Of a stretch of DNA of 64,000 bases, positions 6,936 through 30,922 are shown one piece after another. Origin of the DNA: Hyaloraphidium curvatum (lineage: Eukaryota; Monoblepharomycota; Hyaloraphidiomycetes; Hyaloraphidiales; Hyaloraphidiaceae). The stretch is from NCBI GenBank assembly GCA_025558095.1, contig JAIVFI010000025.1, forward strand, positions 434,001 through 498,000, read 5' to 3'. Every line of letters begins with the position of its first letter. The first letter of the stretch is position 1. The notes beneath the pieces are model-generated. The model ran no database searches and was not told the DNA's origin. It saw only the letters and a list, made by a program, of their open reading frames with translations. The translations under genes were made by a program, and so were the position numbers.

Positions 6936-8750
6936 ATGTCAAGGCGCGCGTCGCCCCGCAGCTCCGGGGCTGAATTAAATGCCGACGGCCTCCCGGGGTC
7001 TCCTTCGTCCGCCTTTTCCACGGCGGCCTTCAGCGAGCCGCCGTCGTCGCCGGACGCCGGGAAAACGGACAAGGGCCCCCGTGTGATGTCCGTCGACGAT
7101 CTCCGAGCCCTGGACAGCGAACTGCACGCGCTGGTGGACGCGGCGTGCGGTGCCGGCAAGAAGCGGACGGAGCGGCCTACGAATCTCGCCGTGACGGTCC
7201 TCGTCAACTGGGTCGCGGTGCGGCAGACCGTCACGAACTACAAGCAGCTCCAGCCCGGGATCTCCGTCGCGAACTTGCTCGGCAGGCAGAGCCATCTTTG
7301 GGGTGCGTTCCACATCCTACTTCATCGCGGCTTCAAAGTCGCTGATCAAGCGCATACTGCTTGTAGCATTCGGCTTCTGCAACGTCGACCGTCGTGACGA
7401 TTCTGGCTCTTTGCACCTAGATGGCATCCTCCGGCCGCACTGGCGATCTCTCTATTACCTTCTGCTGGCCATCGTGCACCGGAAGATCACCAGGCCGGAC
7501 TTCAACGACGAACTCGGCTTTCCTGTACCGGACGGGGCTTCGGAAGAAGATTGCCCCGCTGTGCTCCGAGCAATCAAGGGGAAGTACCGTTCCAGGCTTG
7601 ACCGGGGCCTACAGATCAACACTGGGTGAGCCCCGACAGGCACTTCGGCCCATGGCATTGCTAAAGCGCTCCTCCAGCGCGTTTATCTCGTCTGACAAGT
7701 GGTCCAAGATCCAGAGTGCGCTCGATGTCTGGGCCGACCACGCCCCGGACCATTGGCGGGAGATGCTGGCCCGCCACGCGGCCGGAAACCCCTGCACGGA
7801 TCGGGAGATGTTCGAGTGGCTCGCCACCATGCCCCTGGTTGGCAACTTTCTCGGCTGGCAGATCGCCCAGGACCTCGTGATGCACTCGGGAGGCGTCGTG
7901 GTGAAGGACCCCGACTTCGTGCAGCTCGGTCCGGGGGCGAGCAAGGGTCTGGCAATGTTTGGGATGCAGAACAGGTTCTGGGATCTCCTGAAGAAGTGCA
8001 ACCGCGACCTCGCAAAGCTGAAGATGGAGCGGTGGCAGCGAAAGGACGAGGACGGCACGCGGGAGGTCGTGCCGTTCGTGCTGTCGGCAACCGAGCTGGA
8101 GCACGTCCTGTAGGTCTGCCTTTGCTTCCTCTACCCATCATCCTGAAGGGTCCTTCCAGATGCGAGATCCAGAAGTACGTCAGGGTGGTCTCTCGTGGCC
8201 CCGTGCCGGATGGGACAAAGTTCAAGTCCGGCACAAAGGTGCCGGTCAAGCCGAAGCTCGCGCGCGAATTCAGGGAGCACTACGGCATCGATGATTCGGC
8301 TGCGCCTCCCAAGGGGAAGAAGAGGAAAGCTTCGGTGGTCGACAGCGACGCCGAAAGCGAGGACACCCTCGTCGCAACCCCAAGCAGAACGAAACGGCAG
8401 CGCAGGATGCTGAAGAAGGACCTGAAGAAGGAACTGCACGTCACGACAAAGGGCGATCGGACACGCCCCCCGGCATTCAAGCAATCTCCCTCCAAGATCG
8501 TGGCCAAGGAGGCCGCAAATGAGGACGGCATTTACGAGGTTCGCCTTTCGTTTCAACCGCGGCGTGTTGGCCATCAGCTGATCCCCTTCTCTAGGTTGAG
8601 ACCATCGTCAAGACTCGCGTGCGTCGGGGCGTCCGGGAGTTCTACATCAAGTGGCTTGGGTACAACGATGATACGTGGGAGCCGGAGGACCACCTCGGTG
8701 GATGCGGCAGGATGCTCAGGGCATTCAAGCAGGAGCATGGGCTTTGCTGA
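6936..8750 (+). CDS. 5-hmdU-kinase / putrescinylthymine-pyrophosphorylase-type helical domain fused to a C-terminal chromodomain
   Basis: Five exons (6936-7302, 7421-7625, 7678-8109, 8160-8538, 8595-8750) join in frame to 512 residues. Residues 1-50 are low complexity. Residues about 55-345 are helical and carry PLVGNFLGWQIAQDL, LGPGASKGL (about 275) and, across a splice, EHVLCEIQKY. I recognise these as hallmarks of the HMUDK_hel/aGPT-Pplase family, which acts on 5-hydroxymethyluracil in hypermodified phage DNA and has fungal members. A basic linker (PPKGKKRKAS, SRTKRQRR) suggests nuclear localisation. Residues 459-505 form a chromodomain with an intact aromatic cage (Tyr460, Trp481, Tyr484) in YEVETIV, IKWLGY and WEPEDHL. 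The start could lie at 6762 or 7086. The chromodomain is clear; the enzymatic assignment rests on remembered motifs. Confidence 0.72.
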
Positions 8751-8847
8751 GCAGTTGCTGTTTGATGTGCACGCGGCCGAATCTTGGGAATGCATCTCCG
8801 CCATTCCGACGTGCGACGCGATCGCAAAAAGCCGATCGCGCTACACA

Positions 8848-10392
8848 ATGAGCCCTCCGCCATTCGCCGCCGAAATTTTCAGCGGGCGTCCGGAATCGCT
8901 TGAAGAGCTGCGTCGTGGCGTCGATGACGCGCTTTCCGCGCTGTCTGGGGCGCCACCGCCGTCGGGACCACCGTTCGTCGGCTCGACCGCGGAGGAGCTG
9001 GCAGCGCGGTTCGAGCCGCTCTTTGAAAAGTCTTTGGATTCGCCGTCTTCTTCCACGGCCAATGCCATCCTCAAGGACGTTGTGGCGGCGTGTGTGCCGC
9101 CCTTCCATCCTTCTTCTGTGGCCCACCTTCATACGCCGGTCTTGAACTCTGCTGTCAAGGCCGAAGTGGTGATCGCGGCTCTGAACCAATCGATGGACTC
9201 CCTCGATCAAAGTGGCATCGCAACGGTGGCTGAGCTCCGGGTCCTGGATTGGTTGGCGAAGGACCTTGTCGGTCTCGAGGGACCCGCGGTCGGCGGAACA
9301 TTCACGTCGGGAGGTACCATGTCGAACTACTTTGCGACCCTTCTTGCACTCCATACCCACTTGACACGTGTTCATGGCTGGGATGTGCGGACGAATGGCC
9401 TGCCTCCCGAGCTGCTCCCAAAGCTCCGCGTCCTGACTAGCGGCATTTCCCACTTTTCTATCGAAAAGGCCGTATTGCAACTCGGTCTCGGAACTCGTGC
9501 CGTGGTGAAGGTTCCCGTGGATCCGAGCACCTTTCGGATCGACGTCGCAGAGGCCGAACGGATCGCTGCCGACCTGGTTGCCGACGGCTTAGTCCCGTTC
9601 CTCATCGTTGCGACAGCTTCCACTACCGACTTTGGATCCTTCGATCCCCTGGAGCCGTTGGCCGCCATAGCGCAAAAGCACAACTGCTGGTTCCATGTTG
9701 ATGCCGCGTATGGCAGCGCTTGCCTGCTGTCGCGCACTTTGCGCGGGAATCTTGCGGGAATCGGCAAGGCCTCGAGTGTAACACTGGACTTTCACAAGGC
9801 ATTCTTCCAGCCAGTCTCTTGTGGTGCTTTGCTCGTTGCGGACAGCTCCTGCTTCTCCCTCGTGACCGTCCTCAGCGATTATCTCAATAGTGAGGCTCGG
9901 TTGGACGCTGGTATCCCGGATCTCGTCAACTACAGCCTAATGACGACCCGAAGATTCGACGCATTGAAGCTGATTGTCTCCATAGCCGAGATTGGCCTGG
10001 ATGCGATGGCGAAAATGGTCTATCGCTTGTTCGAGCTTGCTCGCTGGGCCCACGACGAGATGTTGCGGAGGCAGCTTCATGGCAGCGATGCAGGGGACCT
10101 GCATCCTTTACACGAGCCCGAATTTGGCTGCCTTGTCTTTCGGTTCATCCCGCGCGACACGGAGGCGCCAATCGAGCTGGTTGATGCCGTGAACAAGAAG
10201 GTGCCCGAGACGCTCTTCGATCGTGGGACGGTGGTCCTCGGACACACGAAGGTGGAGGGGATCGGCAATGCCCTTAAGCTGACTTTGAACAATCCCGCGG
10301 TGCTCGAGGAGGAGCTATCCCGGGTCCTGGACGCGGTGCAAAGATGCGGGGGGGAGGAATGGGAGCGGATCATGGATCGAGCCAGATCTTGA
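8848..10392 (+). CDS. PLP-dependent decarboxylase, L-2,4-diaminobutyrate decarboxylase-like (group II)
   Basis: Single exon, 514 residues. The group II decarboxylase fold is shown by GGTFTSGGTMSNY, the Asp in FHVDAAYG that pairs with the PLP pyridine nitrogen, and the Schiff-base lysine Lys317 in TLDFHKAFFQP. The 'HKxFFQPxSCGALL' form is closer to diaminobutyrate decarboxylases, which make 1,3-diaminopropane, than to glutamate or aromatic amino-acid decarboxylases. Substrate is an inference. The start MSPPPF is the first Met in frame after the stop of the upstream gene; the frame is open further upstream but only as a shadow of that gene. It lies 97 bp downstream of the chromodomain gene on the same strand. 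Confidence 0.9.
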   Translation: MSPPPFAAEIFSGRPESLEELRRGVDDALSALSGAPPPSGPPFVGSTAEELAARFEPLFEKSLDSPSSSTANAILKDVVAACVPPFHPSSVAHLHTPVLNSAVKAEVVIAALNQSMDSLDQSGIATVAELRVLDWLAKDLVGLEGPAVGGTFTSGGTMSNYFATLLALHTHLTRVHGWDVRTNGLPPELLPKLRVLTSGISHFSIEKAVLQLGLGTRAVVKVPVDPSTFRIDVAEAERIAADLVADGLVPFLIVATASTTDFGSFDPLEPLAAIAQKHNCWFHVDAAYGSACLLSRTLRGNLAGIGKASSVTLDFHKAFFQPVSCGALLVADSSCFSLVTVLSDYLNSEARLDAGIPDLVNYSLMTTRRFDALKLIVSIAEIGLDAMAKMVYRLFELARWAHDEMLRRQLHGSDAGDLHPLHEPEFGCLVFRFIPRDTEAPIELVDAVNKKVPETLFDRGTVVLGHTKVEGIGNALKLTLNNPAVLEEELSRVLDAVQRCGGEEWERIMDRARS

Positions 10393-15575: not shown

Positions 15576-15674
15576 TGTTGCCAATTGTTGACATGCCCCG
15601 CCGGCCATCACAGAGTCACAGACGTGAATGAAGGTCGGCAAACAGAAATTTGCGGCAAAGGCAACGAACTTCAG

Positions 15675-17018
15675 ATGCTCCAAAGCTGGAAATCTGTAGA
15701 CGAGATGCAGGTCCTCGAGTGGAAGTCGGAGCGCGTTTCCGCACTTTATCGCACGGCTGCAGACTGTGGGAATGAGCAACGCGTTGAGCTGCTGCGGCGG
15801 GCGCGCCTGGTGGAGACCCCACATTCAGCGGGCCCGCCGGAAAGCGGCGGCGGGGAGGACCGCGTCGTCGAGGGCGATTCCGGGCCCGTGCTCGTCACGA
15901 CGAAGCTCAGCAGCCGTCAGAGGATGAGGATGCGCGTGAAGGAGAGGAAGCGGCCGTCGGAAGAGGCTCAGGGGCCGGTTGAGCCGCCGAAACGGCAGAG
16001 GCACCTGAACCACGGCGAGGCAGCCGAGTGGAGCTTCCACGAGGAATTAAGGCCGATTCTCCACGAATGGCATGGGAAGCTGATGAGCGGACTGGAGGAT
16101 GGCACTTTGTCGCTGGTGGAGGCCGGTTTTGCTTCGTACGAGTTGGACGCCAAGGACATCTCGGAGCTGGACTGGCCCGCGATCGCTGGAGGGACCGTTC
16201 CCGTCGACGGAGTCGGGGATCTTCTCTCGGCCAATGGAGCGATTGAGGCCAAGGCCCTCGCGCGGCGAACGTGGGCGAACACGTCCGACCAATTCCTTGT
16301 CCTTGACGTGGCGGACGATGAGGCTTCTCGGCGGCTTGTCTTCCCTCCGCGCTGCCACTTTTGCGTTTCCGACCTCGCAGACTCCGCATTTTCAACCTTT
16401 CTTTCTTCGTCGGACAGGATGTTCCACGTCGTGCTCGTGGACCCGCCGTGGCCGAACCGCTCGGCGCAACGGAAGCAGACATACAGCCTTCTTCCTAGCA
16501 CGGAGGTCACAGCTGCCTCCCTGGCGGCGCATTTGGCCCAGCTTTCAACCGCAACTGCCGAGGACGCTGCAATTGGAATCTGGTGCACCAACCGTGCAGC
16601 GCATCGTGAGGCTGCGAAAGGAGTCCTCGAGCAGCTCGGATTTCCCCATCTGTCCGAATGGGTTTGGGGCAAGGTTGCCATTTCGGGAACCTGGGTCGTA
16701 CCGCTGGATGCAGGAGTTGGCAACGGACGGCGACCCTACGAGGTCATGCTCCTAGGACGAAGAAGCGCAGCCAATGAACCCCCGGCGGTACAGAGGAGGG
16801 TGGTGTTTGCCGTGCCGGAGCGGGAACACTCTAGAAAGCCGCGGGAATGGAACGATCTCGTGGCTCGCACCCTGTTTCCGGACCGGGACAGCGATGAACT
16901 TTGCTGCCTGGAACTCTTCGCCAGGGATTTAAAGCCGGGATCGTGGTCCTGGGGTAACCAGGCGCTCAGGTTCCAGGACGAGGTCTGGTGGTTGGAAGGG
17001 GAAGTGCAAAACGAATAA
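15675..17018 (+). CDS. MT-A70 family adenine N6-methyltransferase, METTL4-like
   Basis: 447 residues, no intron detected. The catalytic DPPW motif sits in VVLVDPPWPNRSAQR with a following TYSLLPS. IGIWCTNR, LSEWVWGKVA and the C-terminal CLELFARDLKPGSWSWGNQAL complete the Rossmann methyltransferase core. The last block (LELFAR..PGW.SWGNE) is specific to the METTL4 subgroup rather than METTL3/14. Known METTL4 proteins methylate adenine in DNA or U2 snRNA; which applies here cannot be told. The N-terminal 240 residues include a basic stretch (MRVKERKRPSEEAQ), consistent with nuclear localisation. A longer frame upstream (from 14418) is the antisense shadow of the neighbouring PLP gene and was excluded. 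Confidence 0.87.
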   Translation: MLQSWKSVDEMQVLEWKSERVSALYRTAADCGNEQRVELLRRARLVETPHSAGPPESGGGEDRVVEGDSGPVLVTTKLSSRQRMRMRVKERKRPSEEAQGPVEPPKRQRHLNHGEAAEWSFHEELRPILHEWHGKLMSGLEDGTLSLVEAGFASYELDAKDISELDWPAIAGGTVPVDGVGDLLSANGAIEAKALARRTWANTSDQFLVLDVADDEASRRLVFPPRCHFCVSDLADSAFSTFLSSSDRMFHVVLVDPPWPNRSAQRKQTYSLLPSTEVTAASLAAHLAQLSTATAEDAAIGIWCTNRAAHREAAKGVLEQLGFPHLSEWVWGKVAISGTWVVPLDAGVGNGRRPYEVMLLGRRSAANEPPAVQRRVVFAVPEREHSRKPREWNDLVARTLFPDRDSDELCCLELFARDLKPGSWSWGNQALRFQDEVWWLEGEVQNE

Positions 17019-29142: not shown

Positions 29143-29590
29143 GGGGGAAAGCTGCGAACACGGATGCCTCTATAGATGGGAAATGGTGTAACTGACTCGG
29201 CGCAAACACAACTGCATTCATGCTTCTCTGAGCGAAAGCGACCATTTGCGCCTTGAGGACGGAAAGCGATGTTATCAGTTCACTACTGCGCCTTGAGGAC
29301 GGAAAGCGATGGTATCAGTTCACTACTGCGCAAGAGGAACAACCCAAAAGTGCCACCGAAATCAGCAGAGAAGCGGATGGACATGTTTCTCTTTGTTCCG
29401 CCGTCGTTTCGGTGCTCGGACTCGGAGCTTGAAAGCCCGATTGCCACAGAGCTCAGTGAACGATTCGGCCGGGTCGTCCCTTGCCACCGTCTCCCGGTCC
29501 TCTCTCGGCTCCTCCGGCACGAATCGTTCACGAGCCGGCTCGTTCGGCACGCCGAGGAACTCAGCATTTAACAAGGTCGCAAGTCCCGCG
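29143..29590 (+). other. Intergenic region with a 40-bp tandem repeat
   Basis: This is the region between RING-CH gene 3 and the DUF1254 gene. The only structure I see is the direct repeat at 29247-29331. Confidence 0.55.
29247..29331 (+). repeat. Direct tandem repeat, 40-bp unit, 2.1 copies
   Basis: Unit 1 is 29247-29286 and unit 2 is 29287-29326. They differ at one base (GATGTTATC versus GATGGTATC), and the first 5 bases (TGCGC) start a third copy. It lies about 260 bp before the ATG of the DUF1254 gene, so it could affect transcription or be a replication-slippage scar. Confidence 0.9.
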
Positions 29591-30922
29591 ATGGACGCCG
29601 CCTCGCTCCGCGACCTCGCCCGCGATGCCTTCACCTTCTTCTACCCTCTCGTGCTCATGGACATTTCCCGCGCCCAAATGACCGAAACCGGCCCCGGCCC
29701 GGTCCGGGCGCCGGCCAACGCCTTCGCGCACAACCCCTCGTTCCCAAAGGGCGGGTTCAAGGGGGTTGTCAGGCCCAACTTTGACACCTACTACACCATC
29801 GCGTGGCTCGACCTCCGCGCCGGCCCCGTCGTGCTGTCGACGCCCGCCGCGCCCGACGGGCCTTACTACATCCTGCAGGCGCTGGACCTGTGGACCGACG
29901 TGTTCGCGTCCATCACGCCGCGCAACACGGGCCGCGAGGCCGGGCACTACGCGTTCGCGGGGCCCGGGTGGAAGGGCGCCCTCCCCGATGGAGTGGTCCG
30001 CGTGGACGCGCCGACGAACGTCTGCTGGATCCTGGGGCGCACCGCGGCCTCGGGCCCAGAAGACGCGCGGGCGAGGGCGATACAGAAGGGTTACCGCGCG
30101 GTGCCGCTGGCCCACTGGCCGGGTGAGGCGCCCCCCGTGCAGCACCTCAAGAACCCCAAGGTGGATTTCAGGACGCCGCCGCCCAAGCAGGTCGACCGGA
30201 TGCCCGCGCGGGCCTTCTTCGCGCTCGCGGCCAAGCTGCTGGTGGACAACCCGCCGCACCACGTGGACTGGCCGATCCTGCAGCGGCTCCGCCGCGCCGG
30301 GTGGCAGCAAGGGGCCGGATTCCCCTCCTTCCCGGACGCGCTCGAGTCCGCGCTCGAATCAGGAGTCGGCGACGCCCGCCGCTCCATTGCGGCGGCGATG
30401 GAGCGCGCCGGCACCCTGGCCAACGGTTGGCGCACCTCAATGGACCTTGGCACCTACGGGGCGGACTATCTCAAGCGCGCCGCGACGGCGCTGTTCGGGA
30501 TCGGCGCCAACGTGCCCGAAGATGCGCTCTACCCGGCGCTGTGGACTGACGCCGACGGGCTACCGCTCGAGGGGAAGGAGGCCTACGTGGTCCGGTTCGA
30601 AAGGGGCAAGCTGCCGCCGGCGGGGACGAGGGCGTTCTGGAGCCTCACGCTGTACGACGCCGAGGGGTACCCCGTGGCCAACAGGCTCAACAGGTACGCG
30701 CTGGGGGATCGGGATTCGCTGGTCCTCGGGGCGGACGGGTCGCTCGAGATAATCGCGGGAGGGCCCGAGCCGACCGACCCGCGCCGCCTGGCGAACTGGC
30801 TGCCGGCGGGGGAGGGCAGGTTTACGATGATGCTGCGGGTGTATGAGCCGCGGGCAGAGATGCGGGAGGGGACTTGGCTGCCGCCTCCCGTGAGGAAGGT
30901 GGGCAGTGCGAGCAAGCTTTGA
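29591..30922 (+). CDS. DUF1254/DUF1214 domain protein ending in SKL
   Basis: 443 residues, intronless. An N-terminal DUF1254 region (YPLVLMDISRAQMT, PNFDTYYTIAWLDLRAGPVVLSTP read in pieces) is followed by a C-terminal DUF1214 region (RAFWSLTLYDAEGYPV, NRYALGDRD, and a final NWLPAGEGRFTMMLRVYEP). This two-domain family is common in bacteria, and its biochemical role is not established. The protein ends GSASKL, a canonical type 1 peroxisomal targeting signal, which implies work in the peroxisome. I chose the Met at 29591 because the conserved domain begins within 15 residues of it; the frame is open back to 29309. Confidence 0.88.
   Translation: MDAASLRDLARDAFTFFYPLVLMDISRAQMTETGPGPVRAPANAFAHNPSFPKGGFKGVVRPNFDTYYTIAWLDLRAGPVVLSTPAAPDGPYYILQALDLWTDVFASITPRNTGREAGHYAFAGPGWKGALPDGVVRVDAPTNVCWILGRTAASGPEDARARAIQKGYRAVPLAHWPGEAPPVQHLKNPKVDFRTPPPKQVDRMPARAFFALAAKLLVDNPPHHVDWPILQRLRRAGWQQGAGFPSFPDALESALESGVGDARRSIAAAMERAGTLANGWRTSMDLGTYGADYLKRAATALFGIGANVPEDALYPALWTDADGLPLEGKEAYVVRFERGKLPPAGTRAFWSLTLYDAEGYPVANRLNRYALGDRDSLVLGADGSLEIIAGGPEPTDPRRLANWLPAGEGRFTMMLRVYEPRAEMREGTWLPPPVRKVGSASKL

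Follow-up and report, generated by a model that had tools for sequence, protein, structure and literature searches.

What does a domain known from phage thymine hypermodification do in a fungal protein that also carries a putative histone-mark reader? The question is raised by a five-exon gene of Hyaloraphidium curvatum on the plus strand at positions 6936-8750 of the window (the whole 64,000-nt stretch of DNA analysed here), whose predicted product comprises an HMUDK_hel domain and a chromodomain (Table 1).

Gene model and membership in the HMUDK_hel family

The preliminary description had proposed a spliced, five-exon protein of 512 aa. The five exons were retained, but exon 2 had been started 54 nt too late. 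An alignment of phage members showed a conserved F-C/T-N-V/I-x-R-E-x-D motif that is absent from the 512-aa model and is encoded just upstream of its exon 2. When the first intron was set to 7303-7366, this motif came back in phase and the protein became 530 aa long; the other three introns are 50-56 nt. The 18 residues regained (AFGFCNVDRRDDSGSLHL) include F126, N128, R131, and D134, each invariant or at least 90% conserved in HMUDK_hel. When a profile of phage and prokaryote sequences was used, the score rose from 59.4 bits for the 512-aa model to 75.0 bits for the 530-aa model, and the alignment then spanned residues 80-383. On this profile evidence, the longer version of the intron (7303-7420, 118 nt) was dropped in favour of the 64-nt GT..AG intron. 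The other sequence features first described are all there and in frame, namely GNFLGWQIAQDL (about 7841-7876), LGPGASKGL (about 7925-7951), EHVLCEIQKY (split after EHVL by the intron at 8110-8159), and a chromodomain with a Tyr/Trp/Tyr cage. The linker in exon 4 is rich in Lys and Arg (KGKKRK, RTKRQRRMLKK) and resembles a nuclear localization signal.

Table 1 Exons of the HMUDK_hel/chromodomain gene and other located features. Positions are those of the window unless a locus (L) or contig (C) is named.
Feature	Position	Strand	Content
Exon 1	6936-7302	+	aa 1-122; Ser/Pro-rich N-terminus, then start of helical domain (RQTVTNYKQL; invariant R96)
Intron 1, revised	7303-7366	+	64 nt; GTGCGT..TTGTAG; branch-like CTGAT; raises the profile score from 59 to 75 bits
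Exon 2	7367-7625	+	aa 123-209; HMUDK_hel FCNVDRRDD motif and RKITRPDF segment
Exon 3	7678-8109	+	aa 210-353; HMUDK_hel core: helix-hairpin-helix-like GNFLGWQIAQDL, GPGASKG, LEHVL
Exon 4	8160-8538	+	aa 354-479; CEIQKYVR, the last HMUDK_hel motif; basic linker; GIYE starts chromodomain (cage Y478)
Exon 5	8595-8750	+	aa 480-530 and stop; remaining chromodomain, cage W499 and Y502
PLP-dependent decarboxylase	8848-10392		97 nt downstream
MT-A70 family methyltransferase	15600-17018		about 7 kb downstream; E 4e-26
DUF1254/DUF1214 protein	29309-30922		function unknown
Putative 2OG-oxygenase/chromodomain ORF	L145:4191-5045 (C13:118690-119544)	-	motifs HTD, GDMLVFRGDQVHAG, FRIHGFL
Paralogue of its oxygenase-like domain	L158:1414-2535 (around C6:718124-718615)	-	48% identity; ORF without chromodomain
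Chromodomain ORF beside Pre-SET	L148:1668-3002 and C29:199712-200005		chromodomain split by probable intron
Cys-loop ligand-gated channel-like ORF	L024:33-1022	-	likeness by eye; no Pfam match

A fusion of this kind could be an artefact of the gene model, with the chromodomain exon taken from another transcript or exon 4 reading into the downstream decarboxylase, and the stop-to-stop frame 7696-10392 indeed runs uninterrupted from exon 4 to the end of the decarboxylase. However, the first cage residue (in GIYE) already lies within exon 4, removal of a clean 56-nt GT..AG intron completes the chromodomain up to a stop codon, and the decarboxylase starts at an ATG of its own (8848). We therefore consider an artefact highly improbable. 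Because exon 4 alone holds both CEIQKYVR and GIYE, the fusion is independent of the choice of exon 5.

The helical domain had been assigned to the HMUDK_hel / aGPT-Pplase family, and the Pfam search that had been proposed as a check placed it in HMUDK_hel (PF18723) with 59.7 bits for the 512-aa model and 62.4 bits (E = 5.7e-17) for the 530-aa model, above the cut-off of 25. HMUDK_hel is labelled aGPT-Pplase1 in several phage records. Overall identity between the fungal domain and the phage and prokaryote members is about 22-25%, and yet 16 of the 17 columns that are at least 97% conserved in 39 aligned members are kept in the fungal protein; the sole loss is an invariant Asn, which is T164 in the fungus. 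Since so many conserved columns survive at this level of identity, the match is not due to chance, and by sequence the fungal protein holds a real HMUDK_hel domain. The polar invariant residues R96, R131, D134, D274, E355, K358, and R361 are among those retained. The loop that matches APDINTWANPGPG of the phage members is shorter in the fungus (KDPDFVQLGPG), which, together with T164, suggests that the fungal substrate may differ.

HMUDK_hel had a single match in the H. curvatum genome (31.9 Mb, 55 contigs), which contradicts the idea that the domain is multi-copy transposon cargo. Relatives in this analysis came only from DNA-modifying phages and some prokaryotic sequences, and the best-scoring ones among those fetched were bacterial (e.g., L128, a Hyphomicrobium locus, with E about 6e-12). 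Viral contigs searched directly with the fungal protein gave no match, and the relatives were reached via phage members. Such modification genes have reportedly been found in basidiomycetes. An HMUDK_hel domain joined to a chromodomain and lacking a kinase most likely makes the fungal protein a candidate new variant of a known family.

Phage partners and predicted fold of HMUDK_hel

Phage HMUDK_hel proteins stand alone and are about 290 aa long. Phage M6 encodes HMUDK_hel as gp55, directly after the P-loop kinase HMUDK_HMUD1 (gp54), with ADDT as gp51; the HMUDK_hel of phage ViI (Vi01_130c) is likewise a protein of its own. Both gp55 and Vi01_130c belong to the same Pfam family as the fungal domain and share the collinear motifs F-C/T-N-V, GAY/F, HhH G.F, GPGA.(R/K)G, and LCE..KY.R with it. 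In the phage pathway, a 5hmdU DNA kinase phosphorylates 5hmdU in DNA before further modification takes place, and purified M6 kinase acts on 5hmdU DNA according to an unpublished result mentioned in the same paper (PMC6449724). The kinase HMUDK_HMUD1 shares an operon with HMUDK_hel in many phages; it is a P-loop NTPase, a different domain.

We surveyed the gene neighbourhoods of HMUDK_hel in 114 phage and prokaryote loci, of which the 87 full loci were used to count thymidylate-synthase homologues. Such a homologue was located within 5 kb of HMUDK_hel in 79 of these 87. A P-loop kinase cluster was found in 54 of the 114 loci (adjacent to HMUDK_hel in 29), a class I SAM methyltransferase in 19 (adjoining HMUDK_hel in all 19 and never together with the kinase), an FkbM methyltransferase in 11 (adjoining in nine), and a TAGT glycosyltransferase in 23, counts that represent non-independent events because the loci are related to one another. 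The partner beside HMUDK_hel therefore varies among kinase, methyltransferase, and glycosyltransferase near a thymidylate-synthase homologue, which suggests that phage HMUDK_hel is a common base-recognition or base-presenting subunit for interchangeable transferases. Thus, a domain named after a kinase may be a general base-handling subunit. In phages it would bind a 5-hydroxymethyl-pyrimidine base or present it to whichever enzyme is encoded alongside. In loci L002-L144, TAGT or GT1 glycosyltransferases occurred near HMUDK_hel, and several of these loci appear to be undescribed gene sets for hydroxymethyl-pyrimidine modification.

The fold was called from VIA-align ranks and Z values obtained with a model of the bacterial homologue from L128 (40-row alignment, pLDDT 95) and with a model of fungal exon 3 alone (pLDDT 77). 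The top match of the L128 model was PUGT, the 5-PmdU glycinyltransferase of phage PaMx11 (8z2n; Z 11.7, 217 residues, 3.8 A), which belongs to the same kind of pathway as phage HMUDK_hel. DNA glycosylases and the queuine salvage enzyme DUF2419 came next (Z 8-9.6), the glycosylase matches being Mag2, AlkA, EndoIII, AGOG, and OGG1 (Z 7-9.6); such Z values can come from common arrangements in helical proteins, but PUGT covers nearly all of the L128 model. For the exon 3 model, PUGT again ranked first among PDB chains, weakly (Z 4.4), ahead of other DNA-binding proteins, among them an AlkA glycosylase and RecR. A Foldseek search against PDB gave no significant E-value, and the HMUDK_hel family profile had no match among PDB sequences. 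From the structural ranking, the HhH DNA-glycosylase fold class is probable for the HMUDK_hel family, and the fungal copy is consistent with it.

The likeness to these proteins is one of predicted fold, and it has limits. HhH DNA glycosylases share the overall fold class by prediction but show no detectable sequence-family match. Their catalytic Asp/Lys after the HhH has a possible counterpart in a nearby Asp of the fungal protein (KDPD), but the alignment is gapped there. PUGT, an amino acid:DNA transferase (ADDT; PaMx11 gp46), is the closest solved fold to the bacterial homologue and has collinear GPW/GNF HhH and ETxLC/EHxLC motifs. However, the Pfam ADDT family does not match the fungal protein, a profile comparison of HMUDK_hel with ADDT gave a probability of only 6%, and glycinyl transfer by the fungal protein would be conjecture.

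The chromodomain and the genomic setting

The chromodomain of the preliminary description proved real by Pfam (44.7 bits on both gene models, E = 1.3e-11; cut-off 25.1), and its aromatic cage is intact (Y478/W499/Y502). Its best PDB sequence matches were S. pombe Chp1 (E = 8.6e-12), CDYL, and HP1, which have the Tyr/Trp/Tyr cage in common with it. By sequence, the domain matches best the H3K9me-reading type and is a candidate reader, which in the fungus is attached to a predicted DNA-glycosylase-fold domain. A chimera with a chromovirus integrase chromodomain is unlikely, as the many integrase chromodomains of the genome are only ~21-32% identical to it and have a two-residue insertion, whereas the Chp1 type fits well.

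Two Pre-SET matches were found in the genome as histone methyltransferase candidates, one of them with a chromodomain ORF directly upstream; this latter pair (contig C29) is a candidate Clr4/Suv39-like H3K9 methyltransferase. The H3K9me mark therefore likely exists in this fungus. DNA methyltransferases were also found in the genome, as were chitin synthases, which fit a fungal source.

Phage HMUDK_hel genes mostly have a thymidylate-synthase homologue nearby, together with a kinase or another transferase; this arrangement is customary in phage operons and does not define the sequence family. In contrast, no thymidylate-synthase homologue or transferase link was seen among the identified neighbours of the fungal gene (RidA-like, PLP decarboxylase, MT-A70, and others). 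The PLP-dependent decarboxylase shares its reading frame with exon 4. PLP enzymes also occur in phage hypermodification pathways, probably a coincidence here. The MT-A70 family protein is a candidate N6-adenine methyltransferase.

Elsewhere in the genome, an ORF on contig C13 carries a C-terminal chromodomain that is the closest in the genome to the one fused to HMUDK_hel (38% identity). Its remaining part is a putative 2OG-type oxygenase, judging from its HTD ... H ... R motifs and a weak match (E 0.53) to a 2OG-Fe(II) oxygenase in PDB; Pfam gave no oxygenase match for this ORF.

Candidate functions in chromatin

At a probability of roughly one half, we favour the reading that the fungal protein, with its single-copy HMUDK_hel domain of probable HhH-glycosylase fold and its H3K9me-type chromodomain, is a chromatin-targeted protein that handles DNA or a modified base. 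The chromodomain would replace the link to a partner gene and bring the HMUDK_hel domain to methylated-histone chromatin. Once there, the domain may bind DNA or a modified base and serve as a reader or as the docking subunit of some transferase.

The preliminary description had gone further and proposed an enzyme of the base-hypermodification type that is targeted to methylated-histone chromatin and modifies oxidised thymine or cytosine; the helical domain would then transfer a group onto such a base in heterochromatin. Our results do not support this proposal, and we consider such an enzyme unlikely. The 5-hmdU kinase of M6 is a separate P-loop protein, and in phages the genes for the chemistry are separate neighbours of HMUDK_hel. 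The fungal protein has neither a Walker A motif (G....GK[ST]) nor a match to a P-loop family in a motif scan and Pfam, which rules it out as a 5-hmdU kinase by itself. Nor were partners found in the genome, although these searches are no proof of absence: a search for the HMUDK kinase gave no convincing homologue and nothing over the cut-off (best E 0.2); Tet_JBP had no match to E 1 in an exon-by-exon search that may miss a divergent gene; and an ADDT profile search had no match, but its controls gave none either. The low ADDT profile probability also argues against the proposed enzyme. On the other hand, the invariant polar residues are retained and the genome holds the putative oxygenase with a chromodomain. 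The fungal domain may also be catalytic, because PUGT, the nearest solved fold, is itself an enzyme; for the same reason, the adaptor-only role suggested by phage gene neighbourhoods could be too narrow, and HMUDK_hel could be catalytic there too.

The glycosylase matches of the L128 model also allow for a repair protein targeted to heterochromatin. In H3K9me chromatin, its glycosylase-like domain would bind or remove a damaged base, an oxidised base, or an abasic site; according to its PDB title, Mag2 sculpts DNA at abasic sites. Such a role is slightly more doubtful than an enzyme of the hypermodification type, as the sequence family is that of DNA-modifying phages and not of repair, no catalytic Lys/Asp pair can be assigned, and the Asp that follows the HhH is ambiguous in the fungus. 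Somewhat less probable still is a domesticated phage or bacterial domain that has kept only general DNA binding beside the chromodomain and involves no modified base. The low identity to prokaryotic members (about 23%), the shortened loop after the HhH, the single copy, and the lack of a visible 5-hmU source would fit this. However, the family-invariant residues are almost all retained, indicating that a specific site is probably still in use, which argues against plain DNA binding.

Within the favoured reading of a chromatin-targeted base-handling protein, the C13 ORF offers a speculative extension. The chromodomain oxygenase might oxidise a pyrimidine in H3K9me chromatin, and the HMUDK_hel/chromodomain protein might bind the product or present it to a transferase. 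We regard this pathway as very unlikely on present evidence, but if true, it would give the heterochromatin of a fungus a modified-base mark placed under histone guidance. In any case, one fungal protein links a phage thymine-hypermodification domain with a putative histone-mark reader, and it provides a direct candidate for asking whether fungal heterochromatin carries, or is read via, modified pyrimidines beyond 5mC.
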